From Natronospirillum operosum (GTDB taxonomy: Bacteria > Pseudomonadota > Gammaproteobacteria > Pseudomonadales > Natronospirillaceae): 64,000 bases of DNA. The notes beneath the pieces are model-generated. The model ran no database searches, was not told the DNA's origin, and worked only from the letters and a program-made list of their open reading frames with translations. The position numbers and the translations under genes were made by a program. Below, one piece after another: positions 42,525-52,406 of this stretch. Numbering within the stretch: the stretch's first letter is position 1; every line of letters begins with the position of its first letter. The stretch spans positions 718,232-782,231 of the forward strand of contig NZ_SRMF01000001.1 of NCBI RefSeq assembly GCF_004768465.1. The letters run 5' to 3'.

Positions 42525-43841
42525 ATGTCCACTGAACACCATCACGCCGATGCATTTCTGGCCTCGCTGCTGCAGGACCGGGATGCGGACACCCTGCGGG
42601 CGCGCCTGCACCCGGACTTGACTGCGCCTGTCGTGCCCCGGCTGCCCAGGTCGCCCCGCCTGTCTCCCGCCATGATAGAGCGCCGGCTGAAAGCGCTGGC
42701 CAATGGGCCGGAATTGCGCGCGCACCTGCTTGACCCGCATACGGAAGCCCATCTGGAGGCCTACGCCGGCAATATCGAGTATGGCCTGGGCACGGTGAAA
42801 ATGCCCGTTGGCGTGGCCGGGCCGCTGCGCGTGCGGGGTCTGTTTGCCGGCGGTGACTATCCGTTGCCGTTGGCGACCACTGAGGCTGCCCTGGTGGCGT
42901 CCTACCATCGCGGCGCCCTGGCCATCAATGACGCTGGTGGCTGCACCTCTGTGTTGATTGACGAAGCGGTGTCGCGGGCGCCGGGTTTTGCCTTTCCATC
43001 GGTCAGAGACTCGGGTGAATTTGTGGCCTGGGTACTGGGACAGCTCGAGACCATGAAAGCGGTTACGGGTCAGACCACACGGCATGGTGAATTGAAGGGC
43101 ATGAAGGTCACCATCGAAGGCAACCATGTCTACCTGATCCTGCAGTTCCATACCGGCGATGCCTCGGGCCAGAATATGGTCACCCTGGCTGCCGAGGCGA
43201 TCTGCCAGTTTATCCTGGAAAACAGTCCGGTAACGCCTGATTACCATTTCGTGGAGGCCAACCTGTCCGGCGACAAGAAAGCCAGTGCGCAGTCCTTTAC
43301 TTCGGTACGCGGGCGCAAGGTGACCACCGAGGTGGTGCTGTCGCGCCAGATTGTCGAGCAGCGCCTGCAGACCACACCGGAGCGCATGACGGACTACTGG
43401 CGCTTCTCGGCCATGGGTGGGGTGCTCAGCGGCACCATGGGCGTGCACGGCCATTATGCCAATGGCCTGGCGGCGCTCTATATCGCCACCGGCCAGGATG
43501 CGGCCTGTGTGGCGGAGTCGGCTGTCGGTACCACGCGTCTGGAACTGACCCCGGATGGCGGGCTCTACGCCACCCTGACCCTGCCCAACCTGATGCTGGG
43601 CACTGTCGGCGGCGGTACCGGCCTGCCCAGCCAGCAGGCCTGTCTGAACATGATGGGTCTGGCGGGCACGGGCAAGGTTCGTGCGCTGGCGGAAGTCGCC
43701 GGGGGTCTGATTCTGGCAGGCGAGCTGTCGATTATCGCCGCTCTGTCCGCTGGCCACTTTGCCCGTGCGCATCGCAAGCTGGGGCGCGAGCGAGGCCAGG
43801 AGGACACGGATACATCGACCGGGCAGGGAGATCAGCCATGA
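42525..43841 (+). CDS. Class I-like 3-hydroxy-3-methylglutaryl-CoA reductase
   Basis: 438 residues, catalytic domain only, no membrane anchor. All four catalytic residues of human HMGR map: Glu120 (LATTEAAL), Lys251 (SGDKKAS), Asp325 (GQDAAC) and His416 (FARAHRK). Dinucleotide loop GTVGGGTGLPSQ (359-370); the class I DAMGMN motif reads DASGQN (212-217). Class I residue pattern points to NADPH and mevalonate formation, or a related reduction. No other mevalonate gene is in the window, and gammaproteobacteria normally use the MEP pathway. First gene of a seven-gene overlapping operon; its stop overlaps the UbiA start. Confidence 0.9.
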   Translation: MSTEHHHADAFLASLLQDRDADTLRARLHPDLTAPVVPRLPRSPRLSPAMIERRLKALANGPELRAHLLDPHTEAHLEAYAGNIEYGLGTVKMPVGVAGPLRVRGLFAGGDYPLPLATTEAALVASYHRGALAINDAGGCTSVLIDEAVSRAPGFAFPSVRDSGEFVAWVLGQLETMKAVTGQTTRHGELKGMKVTIEGNHVYLILQFHTGDASGQNMVTLAAEAICQFILENSPVTPDYHFVEANLSGDKKASAQSFTSVRGRKVTTEVVLSRQIVEQRLQTTPERMTDYWRFSAMGGVLSGTMGVHGHYANGLAALYIATGQDAACVAESAVGTTRLELTPDGGLYATLTLPNLMLGTVGGGTGLPSQQACLNMMGLAGTGKVRALAEVAGGLILAGELSIIAALSAGHFARAHRKLGRERGQEDTDTSTGQGDQP

Positions 43842-44749
43842 CTGCCTTGCCTGATGAGTCGGGCCTGACACTGCTGCAGCGGGGCTGGCGCTATCAGCAG
43901 GAGCGTTTCCCGCTGCTGGTCCACGGGCCCCTGATTGCCGTGATGGCGTTCGGAGCCTTTGGCTATGCGATTTCGGTCGCTGAACTGCAACCAGATTTAT
44001 ACCGTTATCTTTCATGCTGGGCCGGGCTACTGGCCTTTTTCTTCCTGCTCCGGGTCGCCGACGAGTTCAAGGATTATCAGACCGACTGTGCGCATCGACC
44101 CTACCGGGCCGTGCCGCGCGGGCTGGTCAGTCTGCGCGCACTGGGCATTGCAGCTGCAGTGGCACTGGGCCTGCAGATACTGCTGATACCCGTGGTGGGC
44201 CTGTACCTGCTGGTGCCACTGATACTGACCTGGGTCTGGCTGGGGCTCATGACCCGGGAGTTTTTTGTCGGCACCTGGCTGGAGGCGCGACCAGTCCTTT
44301 ATCTGTTCAGCCATATGCTGATCATGCCGCTGCTGATGTTCTATGCGCTGACGCATTTCGGGCCGGTCCCTCTGGCTCAGGTCTGGCTGCTGCTGCCGCT
44401 GGCGCTGGGCGTCGGCCTGTGTCTCGAACTGGGTCGCAAGATTCGGCGCCCGCAGGATGAAGAAGCCGGGGTAGAAACCTATTCGGCGCTATGGGGGCCG
44501 CGACGCGCTGCGTTGGCCTGGTTCGCGGCCGTTCTGTTTACGCTGGTCTGGTTGTTTTGGGCGCTGCGCCCAGTGGCGCCGGCCGTACTGACCGTCGGCG
44601 TGGTGGCTGTTGCCGGGCTGTTGGCACTGGCACTGCTGGTGGTGCACGCCAGGCAACCGGAGAGTCGGGCGGCCAAAGGGTTTGAAGGCCTTTCGGCGCT
44701 GCTGATTCTGCTCTCCTATGGCGCGCTCGGGGTGACACCATGGCTTTAA
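43838..44749 (+). CDS. UbiA-family prenyltransferase-like membrane protein
   Basis: 303 residues, about nine membrane helices. First Asp-rich motif DEFKDYQTD (75-83) followed by the basic RPYRAVPRG (87-95), which fits the Mg-diphosphate site of UbiA enzymes. The second motif is ELGRKIRRPQDE with D replaced partly, similar to the weaker second site in the family. It would transfer a prenyl or similar diphosphate-linked group to an acceptor in the membrane. Overlaps HMGR by 4 bp and the PEP-utiliser gene by 10 bp. The acceptor is unknown. Confidence 0.85.
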   Translation: MTALPDESGLTLLQRGWRYQQERFPLLVHGPLIAVMAFGAFGYAISVAELQPDLYRYLSCWAGLLAFFFLLRVADEFKDYQTDCAHRPYRAVPRGLVSLRALGIAAAVALGLQILLIPVVGLYLLVPLILTWVWLGLMTREFFVGTWLEARPVLYLFSHMLIMPLLMFYALTHFGPVPLAQVWLLLPLALGVGLCLELGRKIRRPQDEEAGVETYSALWGPRRAALAWFAAVLFTLVWLFWALRPVAPAVLTVGVVAVAGLLALALLVVHARQPESRAAKGFEGLSALLILLSYGALGVTPWL

Positions 44750-50781: not shown

Positions 50782-52406
50782 GTGGTGCCCAGAGCTCCGA
50801 CCCTGCGCAGCCCGGCAACAGTTCCAACATTGTGGCGTTGTTCGATACGCAGACGGCCGCTCAGCCGGACGCAGCCGCACTGCTGGATGGTCGACAGTAT
50901 CCGCAGCAGCCCATCAAGACGCACAGCTTTGCCGATCTGCAGCGGCTGTCACTGGCCTGGGCTGACACCCTGGCGCAATCGGGGATAGGGCCAGGCGACC
51001 GGGTGCTGGTGGCATTGCGGGTGTCACCGGCGCTTTACGGGCTGTTGCTGGCCCTGTGGCGTCTGGGTGCGGTGGCCATCCTGCCCGATCCTTCGGCGCC
51101 CAGAAGCCAACTGGATGATACCTGCCAGCGCCTGCAGCCATCGGCCTTTGTGGGGATACCCGCAGCTCATCTGCTGCGTCTGGGTTATGCCAGTGTTCGA
51201 CGCATACCGCGACATTTCAGCGTCGATGCCTGGTTGCCCTGGACGACGCGGCTTGGAGGCAACCCGACCGAAGCTCCGCCCCGCGACGCATGGAAAGCGC
51301 CGGCAGACAGTCCGGCCCTGATCACCTTTACCAGTGGCAGTACCGGTCGACCCAAGGCGGCCTGTCGCAGCCACGGGTTTCTGCGCGCCCAGTATCAGGC
51401 CATTCTTGGTACTCTGCACCTGCAACCGGGCGATGTGGATGCCACTACACTGCCGGTCTTTGTGCTGGCCAACCTGGCCGCCGGTGTCAGCACGCTGCTG
51501 CCACCCGGCGATATTGCCCGGCCCGGGGCCATCGAGCCCGTGCCGGTATTGCAGGCGATGCAGGCCTGCGGTGTCACCCGGGCCAGCGGTTCGCCGGCGT
51601 TCTTTCGTCAGCTCTGTCAGGGCCTGAACGAAATGGCATCGCCGCAGTTGCAGCACCTGCATACGGGTGGCGCGCCGGTCACGCCGGAGATGATGCTGGA
51701 CTATGCGCAGTTGGTGGCCTCTGGGCGCAGTGTGACAGCGGTCTACGGCTCCACCGAGGCCGAGCCCATTGCCGAGTTGCCCGCCACCGAGCTGAATGAG
51801 ACTGCGCTGGCCGGGCCCGAGGCGGGCTATGGCCTGCCAGCAGGGCGTCCGCTGGCGGCTGTCCGGTTGCGCATTCTGGCGGTGACAGAAACGCCGCCGC
51901 CATTTCGCCTTACCGCAGCAGAACTGGAAGAACGCTGTATCGGCCCGGGCGAGATTGGTGAAATCACCGTGGCCGGGGCCCATGTGCTGGGCGGCTATCT
52001 GGACGGCGAAGGCGATGAGCAGACCAAGTTGGATGTCGAAGGCGTACGCTGGCATCGCACCGGCGATGCCGGCTATCTGGATGCGGAAGGTCGCTTGTGG
52101 CTGGTGGGCCGGGTGTCGGCGGCAGTTACTCTGGGCGGACGATGCCTGTATCCGTTTCAACTGGAATATCCGCTTCGGGCCCAGCCCGGCGTGGCGGCGG
52201 CAGCCGTGCTGACGCATCAGGGTCAGGCCTGCCTGGTGATCGAGCCCAAGCCGGGTTGTCAGCCTGATGTCGAGCAACTGGTGTCTGCCCTGCCGGTCGG
52301 CATCCCGGCCCAGTCAATACGGCTTGTAAAGCAGATCCCGCTGGACCGAAGGCACAATGCCAAGATCGACTATGGTGCCCTGCAGGCGCTGCTGAGCCGG
52401 CCCTGA
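50778..52406 (+). CDS. OleC-like AMP-dependent acyl-activating enzyme
   Basis: 542 residues, adenylate-forming fold. P-loop TSGSTGRPK (185-193), GDVDATTLPVFVLANLAAG, TGGAPVT, VYGSTEAEPIAE and WHRTGDAGYLDAEGRLWLVGR; the C-terminal lysine lies in NAKIDYGAL. The segment after the P-loop and the GSPAFFRQLC block match OleC, the beta-lactone synthetase, more than ordinary CoA ligases. So beta-hydroxy acid activation is possible. Last gene of the operon; followed by 41 bp to a convergent reductase. Confidence 0.82.
   Translation: MSGAQSSDPAQPGNSSNIVALFDTQTAAQPDAAALLDGRQYPQQPIKTHSFADLQRLSLAWADTLAQSGIGPGDRVLVALRVSPALYGLLLALWRLGAVAILPDPSAPRSQLDDTCQRLQPSAFVGIPAAHLLRLGYASVRRIPRHFSVDAWLPWTTRLGGNPTEAPPRDAWKAPADSPALITFTSGSTGRPKAACRSHGFLRAQYQAILGTLHLQPGDVDATTLPVFVLANLAAGVSTLLPPGDIARPGAIEPVPVLQAMQACGVTRASGSPAFFRQLCQGLNEMASPQLQHLHTGGAPVTPEMMLDYAQLVASGRSVTAVYGSTEAEPIAELPATELNETALAGPEAGYGLPAGRPLAAVRLRILAVTETPPPFRLTAAELEERCIGPGEIGEITVAGAHVLGGYLDGEGDEQTKLDVEGVRWHRTGDAGYLDAEGRLWLVGRVSAAVTLGGRCLYPFQLEYPLRAQPGVAAAAVLTHQGQACLVIEPKPGCQPDVEQLVSALPVGIPAQSIRLVKQIPLDRRHNAKIDYGALQALLSRP

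Follow-up and report, generated by a model that had tools for sequence, protein, structure and literature searches.

A recurrent seven-gene bacterial operon that may encode an aminolipid pathway

Seven overlapping genes at positions 42525–52406 of a 64,000-nucleotide (nt) stretch of the Natronospirillum operosum genome (contig NZ_SRMF01000001.1; hereafter, the window) were found to recur together in distant bacteria and are a real, patchily distributed and co-inherited unit, beyond chance. For its function, the account we favour, with confidence evenly balanced, is synthesis of an aminolipid: a DUF3419 enzyme would move the aminocarboxypropyl group of S-adenosylmethionine (SAM) to a lipid hydroxyl, and a relative of HMG-CoA reductase (HMGR) would reductively convert a fatty or prenoyl thioester into the alcohol. 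The seven open reading frames (ORFs), all on the + strand, and the region before them are as follows (aa, amino acids).

42347..42524, no strand: region 5' of gene 1, with AAGGA at 42512–42516 a likely ribosome-binding site
42525..43841, +: gene 1, HMGR-like reductase, 438 aa; predicted acyl-thioester-to-alcohol reductase
43838..44749, +: gene 2, UbiA-superfamily prenyltransferase, 303 aa; Pfam UbiA, Asp motif
44740..47328, +: gene 3, PPDK/phosphoenolpyruvate (PEP)-synthase-like dikinase, 862 aa; ATP-grasp and mobile domain with His799
47325..48422, +: gene 4, DUF3419 (BtaA superfamily), 365 aa; predicted 3-amino-3-carboxypropyl transferase using SAM
48419..49777, +: gene 5 (DolK), phytol/dolichol-kinase-like integral membrane protein, 452 aa; predicted CTP-dependent lipid-alcohol kinase
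49768..50781, +: gene 6, tandem GNAT N-acyltransferase, 337 aa; TTG start
50778..52406, +: gene 7, AMP-forming acyl ligase (ANL), 542 aa, PRK09274/OleC-related; AMP-binding match

Computed from the sequence, the six junctions overlap by 4, 10, 4, 4, 10 and 4 bp in turn, as a preliminary description made from the sequence (an overlap of 4 or 10 bp at every junction) had stated. Gene 6 begins with TTG at 49768; the other six genes begin with ATG.

Recurrence and gene order of the unit

A first scan of genome contigs with DUF3419 gave nine loci. Hyphomicrobium, Devosia and Crocinitomicaceae also carry the seven genes in window order, and all but HMGR were seen in Obscuribacterales. A gene-order survey with profiles of all seven proteins took in 45 stretches, drawn from 43 genomes or records; outside this count stand L001 (on the same contig as L019), L009, L018, L046, L148 and L149, short loci (about 4 kb) covering the same places again, and five second stretches, L117, L121, L124, L125 and L126. 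The preliminary description had proposed such a search as a check on its idea of one pathway for an unusual lipid or natural product, which a lack of co-occurrence would have refuted: the same seven families do recur together in distant bacteria, which supports a co-inherited unit, and a single lipid pathway is the most likely explanation.

The complete set was found together in 24 of the 45 stretches, from gamma- and alphaproteobacteria, Verrucomicrobiota, Bacteroidota and one plasmid. Eighteen of these 24 have order A (HMGR–UbiA–PPDK–DUF3419–DolK–GNAT–ligase), the order of L043, where the DolK frame is broken; four have order D (GNAT–ligase–HMGR–UbiA–PPDK–DUF3419–DolK), a circular permutation of A; and two have order B (HMGR–DUF3419–DolK–GNAT–ligase–UbiA–PPDK), in which the UbiA–PPDK pair is shifted to the end. 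HMGR alone was absent from six stretches. The ligase was absent from L041, at a contig end; GNAT from L082, ordered ligase–UbiA–PPDK–HMGR–DUF3419–DolK; and DolK from L017, but there HMGR is fused to a kinase. The other 12 comprise two genomes with the set spread over two contigs each (L004 and L122; L080 and L123), L005 and L006, with the trio HMGR–DUF3419–DolK and PPDK elsewhere in the genome, and six cut, partial or variant stretches (L019, L044, L076, L084, L088 and L147).

The unit is sparse within the groups that carry it (each count that follows includes its centre genome). A DUF3419 match was found in 5 of 96 relatives of the window genome, operon-type in three (G000, G001 and G004), within a divergent cluster in G009 and weak in the last. 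Operon-type DUF3419 (E 1e-131 or lower) occurred in 7 of 321 gammaproteobacteria, with one further genome at 5.9e-55 and 11 at 1e-26 to 1e-38. At E 1e-45, matches were found in 2 of 289 alphaproteobacteria, in 17 of 288 genomes from the phylum that includes G417 (Verrucomicrobia) and in 11 of 296 from that of G419 (Crocinitomicaceae), three of these 11 (L147–L149) not being of the seven-gene type. A plasmid of Roseinatronobacter carries the operon, with HMGR spanning the record start; a search of 72,556 plasmid records returned one with a 50% match and 12 others about 26–40% identical, which in our reading look BtaA-like.

Pairwise identities between loci correlate across the seven families, as for genes travelling together (Spearman 0.34 for UbiA–DUF3419 to 0.85 for PPDK–ligase, the pairs not being independent). 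Presence of HMGR required seven changes on the DUF3419 tree, and 117 and 119 of 500 shuffles were as low; with a count not below the shuffles, the HMGR label is unclustered on that tree. Same-strand neighbours beyond the seven vary among loci, and genes near the operon of L083, L086, L091, L123 and others belong to unrelated families.

Some local arrangements were seen beside individual units. One genome (G415) has an AbiEii-type toxin–antitoxin-like gene and a companion inside the operon, between ligase and UbiA (L122, 3551–4995), and, directly upstream of its HMGR–DUF3419–DolK (L004, 163–8684), four radical SAM genes, of which two carry B12 domains, a GH3-type ligase and two genes that are GNAT-like by eye. 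L077 likewise has a radical SAM/B12 gene ahead of HMGR.

The HMGR relative and the mevalonate question

Gene 1 matches Pfam HMG-CoA_red at 360 bits and keeps all four catalytic residues (Glu120, Lys251, Asp325 and His416). At the position of human Ser684 the window enzyme has Glu244, and every one of the 33 operon-type HMGR rows in which this site is visible has Glu; the Lys735 motif (KNLxG) is absent from the operon-type rows covering that part. Both Ser and Lys motif were kept in 7/7 second HMGRs of carrier genomes (that of L111 has an in-frame stop) and in the PDB enzymes 6hr7, 8ecg, 7uli and 1dq8. In passages of PMC9500038 on statin complexes, Lys735 forms a salt bridge to the terminal carboxylate of HMG, and Ser684 is among the polar contacts. 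Loss of these contacts suggests a substrate without a carboxylate at that end, and the operon enzyme probably reduces a different, fatty substrate.

The window genome (98.8% complete) has one HMGR match, that of the operon, and has Dxr; neither HMG-CoA synthase nor mevalonate-diphosphate decarboxylase was matched in it. Mevalonate supply by the operon, as the preliminary description had it, was therefore rejected, on the missing partner genes, the presence of Dxr and the lost Ser684 and Lys735 contacts. The operon enzyme shares sequence family and catalytic residues with class I mevalonate HMGRs, but it is without the two contacts to the HMG carboxylate, and pathway partners are missing from its genome. 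Across 18 carrier genomes, the synthase was found in 4 (G004, G415, G416 and G417), Dxr in 14 and a decarboxylase match above cut-off in 3 (G159, G415 and G417). One carrier, the Devosia genome G414, showed neither the HMG-CoA synthase nor the Dxr family; an alternative reductoisomerase may serve there.

HMGR is not universal to the operon: 8 of 24 carriers, including several draft assemblies, had no match at E 1e-10, and G418 likewise had none. Ten neighbours from five loci with HMGR-less or partial operons included no shared replacement; they were an FGGY kinase, IPPT, Fe-ADH, PALP, an AraC regulator, a transporter, NAD synthase, a sigma-54 activator, a tRNA synthetase and an AMP-binding gene. 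If our reading of gene 1 is correct, the statin-target family has an offshoot acting on another substrate. Glu at the Ser684 site is a residue signature for locating operon-type HMGRs, and 'HMGR present' in a genome table need not mean a mevalonate pathway.

The other six enzymes and a candidate route

The UbiA protein scores 47.5 bits (cut-off 34.2), with Asp75, Asp79 and Asp83 invariant in 13/13 sequences. Its best match in a PDB profile search was DGGGP synthase (6m31; E 1.9e-6), and an alignment-based homologue search returned 1064 proteins, mostly named by family and none by function. The DUF3419 protein scores 227 bits (cut-off 28.2); a PDB sequence search with it gave no match. GNAT domain and fold were both found for gene 6 (Acetyltransf_1, 28.1 bits; cut-off 20.7).

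Two labels of the preliminary description held for the superfamily and not for the family. The dikinase, first called rifampicin-phosphotransferase-like, has PPDK_N (144 bits) and PEP-utilizers (78 bits) domains with an invariant His799, and so shares the PPDK-type ATP-grasp and His domain of PEP synthase-like, RedH/PigC and Rph dikinases, but lies under every family cut-off: its nearest NCBIfam model is 'phosphoenolpyruvate synthase' (PRK06241-type; 709.9 of 883 bits), ahead of RedH (285 of 1350), Rph (RIF_Ptrans_rph; 240.8 of 999) and PigC (234 of 1300). G096, a carrier without an HMGR match, has another PPDK-like gene that is distantly related (E 4.7e-118; L126, 8044–10644). The ligase (AMP-binding, 149 bits), first called OleC-like, sits in the ANL superfamily, in the PRK09274 neighbourhood (368.7 of 478 bits), but falls far below the cut-offs of the OleC beta-lactone synthetase models (232.2 of 900 and 177.6 of 850 bits), and no other Ole-type gene is among the seven.

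Gene 5, described earlier as dolichol-kinase-like, matched no Pfam family over cut-off, and Foldseek gave no match at E 0.001; the label is supported indirectly, by relatives that carry the source name 'phytol kinase' and by a predicted fold that, among matches of a fitting kind, comes nearest to the CTP-dependent CDP-diacylglycerol synthase CdsA. Its C-terminal half matches DUF92, which we take to be the VTE6-type family, at noise level (E 0.54, below cut-off), and an unrelated genome site matches equally. Any DUF92 match was found in only 1 of 12 carrier genomes. We dropped a VTE5–VTE6 fusion as the main reading of gene 5 because this match remained noise.

Fusions and swaps, each read from one genome, hint at gene roles. 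L017, a divergent cluster from the window's family, has a ligase, DUF3419, HMGR fused to an APH-type kinase, UbiA and PPDK, together with a GNAT-like gene without a Pfam hit and a PAP2 phosphatase; in L043, PPDK is fused to DUF3419. The packed operon of L147 holds a thioester-reductase-type protein, a YegS/DAGK lipid kinase, UbiA, PPDK, GNAT, a phosphatidylserine (PS)-decarboxylase-like protein and DUF3419, with no AMP ligase among the matches; the thioester-reductase-type protein and lipid kinase occupy the HMGR and DolK places, and a type 2 isopentenyl-diphosphate isomerase and a prenyl-diphosphate synthase lie about 3 kb further on. L148 (G1127, 4331–11870) has the only PEMT–DUF3419 fusion seen, a DAGK-type lipid kinase, a weak GNAT match and a pyridoxal-phosphate (PLP) decarboxylase that scores almost as an ordinary LysA, and is possibly an alternative betaine-lipid route. 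Together, these arrangements point to a thioester reductase in the first slot and a lipid kinase in the fifth, and L147 and L148 suggest that a PS-decarboxylase-like or PEMT-like enzyme can act after the DUF3419 product.

Three further clusters were noted. In L149 (G1189, 7749–10637), DUF3419 adjoins acyl-ACP-reductase-like and aldehyde-decarbonylase-like genes, both far below family cut-offs. A related DUF3419 in L046 (G333, 824–11092) adjoins a LuxI-like autoinducer-synthase fold, an acyl-CoA-dehydrogenase-like protein and an AMP ligase with a carrier domain, with KAS III, an ABC1–aminotransferase fusion and an amine oxidase also present, a further and possibly SAM-using cluster. In L008 (Crocinitomicaceae, 14397–15728), a cytochrome P450 gene follows the seven.

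Our observations are the unit, how it recurs and is rearranged, the fusions, swaps and residue changes, and the missing mevalonate genes of the window genome; substrates, product and step order in the following route are all our proposal. The AMP ligase would activate an acid to an acyl-CoA, and the HMGR-like enzyme would use NAD(P)H to take the thioester to a primary alcohol. The membrane kinase of gene 5 would then phosphorylate a lipid alcohol with CTP. UbiA would add a prenyl chain from a prenyl diphosphate, alongside which the dikinase may pass a phosphate from ATP, via its histidine, to the UbiA intermediate. DUF3419 would add the aminocarboxypropyl group, releasing methylthioadenosine, and the tandem GNAT would N-acylate the new amine with acyl-CoA supplied by the ligase. 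The predicted product is a phosphorylated, prenylated N-acyl-aminocarboxypropyl lipid.

More tentatively, and short of even confidence, the operon may represent a new class of bacterial aminolipid spread by cross-phylum gene transfer, ether- or prenyl-linked, N-acylated, phosphorylated and ceramide-like, in which SAM-derived aminocarboxypropyl replaces serine and HMGR has turned fatty-thioester reductase in a clade off mevalonate metabolism. If the aminolipid reading holds, at least three phyla share an undescribed lipid pathway, and a fourth has six of its seven genes. Two carriers look cultured by record, Devosia sp. Root413D1 and Roseinatronobacter sp. S2 with its plasmid.

Known systems and alternative readings

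No description of the pathway or gene set was found in open-licence PubMed Central papers, and an account in a subscription journal is possible; it appears new as a pathway, built from enzyme families and folds already known. The closest parallel is betaine-lipid (DGTS) synthesis by BtaA and BtaB: according to PMC10491745, BtaA moves aminocarboxypropyl from SAM to a lipid hydroxyl, the reaction predicted by analogy for the operon DUF3419 enzyme. The operon differs in having six additional enzymes and no BtaB-type N-methyltransferase among the seven, and its DUF3419 is set apart by the E-values given above. The tocopherol phytyl module consists of VTE5, VTE6 and HPT; the operon likewise pairs a phytol-kinase-like protein with a UbiA enzyme, but is without an aromatic-acceptor gene and adds reductase, DUF3419, GNAT, ligase and dikinase. 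Bacterial ceramide synthase is GNAT-type, and the operon shares with ceramide and ceramide-phosphate synthesis a GNAT-fold enzyme for predicted N-acyl transfer and a predicted lipid kinase; unlike that route, it has no serine palmitoyltransferase among the seven, and its amine would likely come from SAM.

Instead of a membrane lipid, the same chemistry could yield a diffusible signal or natural product, which we consider unlikely. Its patchy distribution, the P450 at the end of L008, the relation of the dikinase to RedH/PigC and the LuxI-like gene beside the related DUF3419 of L046 would all suit such a product, but UbiA, DUF3419, kinase and ligase are lipid-type enzymes by family, and in the neighbour lists viewed (not an exhaustive annotation) the unit is not repeatedly accompanied by any exporter, regulator or carrier protein.

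Quite unlikely, in our view, is a SAM-derived sphingolipid mimic, in which DUF3419 would make an O-alkyl or O-prenyl homoserine, the ligase would activate its carboxylate, the HMGR-like enzyme would reduce the resulting thioester to a 2-amino alcohol, GNAT would N-acylate it to a ceramide-like lipid and DolK would phosphorylate the CH2OH to a ceramide-phosphate-like one. The GNAT and kinase slots fit ceramide logic, the HMGR–kinase fusion of L017 suits a kinase acting on the reduction product, and Glu244, new and invariant in the pocket, offers a possible partner for an ammonium group. L147 cuts both ways: its PS-decarboxylase-like gene, present instead of an AMP ligase, looks as though it and the ligase served the same carboxylate, but coexists with a reductase, which should then target another carboxyl, and we rank the reduced-carboxylate variant as a rival on this ground. 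The supposed second example, L148, has a near-ordinary LysA, which slightly lowers the odds of this reading, and operons without HMGR retain AMP ligase and DolK.

Tocopherol-like prenyl-alcohol salvage is distinctly improbable. The HMGR-like enzyme would here make a phytol-like alcohol from an acyl-CoA, gene 5 would phosphorylate it twice (VTE5/VTE6-like) and UbiA would move it to an acceptor that bears the aminocarboxypropyl group; the phytol kinase names, the weak DUF92 match and a UbiA within the same operon fit this, but that match is the noise-level one found in a single carrier, gene 5 is only 248 aa in L008, and other kinase families replace it in L017 and L147. A true HMGR, with mevalonate as a building block of a terpenoid natural product, is very unlikely despite the class I similarity and intact catalytic residues, given the missing synthase and decarboxylase beside Dxr, the lost Ser684 and Lys735 equivalents and the thioester-reductase-type protein in its place in L147.

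In the window itself, a prolyl-tRNA-synthetase-like ORF opposes the operon; its longest form extends to 42532, and its true start is likely the ATG at 42346 (by eye). A consensus scan found no sigma-70-type promoter 5' of gene 1 (1.4 expected); terminator-like sites numbered 9 versus 5.6 expected, and no use was made of them. The window holds no tRNA, and at 41500–54500 we found only short diverged direct repeat pairs, no inverted pairs and no sign of a mobile element. GC content is 0.65 in the operon versus 0.61 in the remaining window. STVD/LSTV runs recur in intergenic translations at 53437–54300 and 39982–40060, suggesting a short dispersed repeat, and a gene for a FemAB-like protein lies near the operon on the opposite strand (53967–55220).

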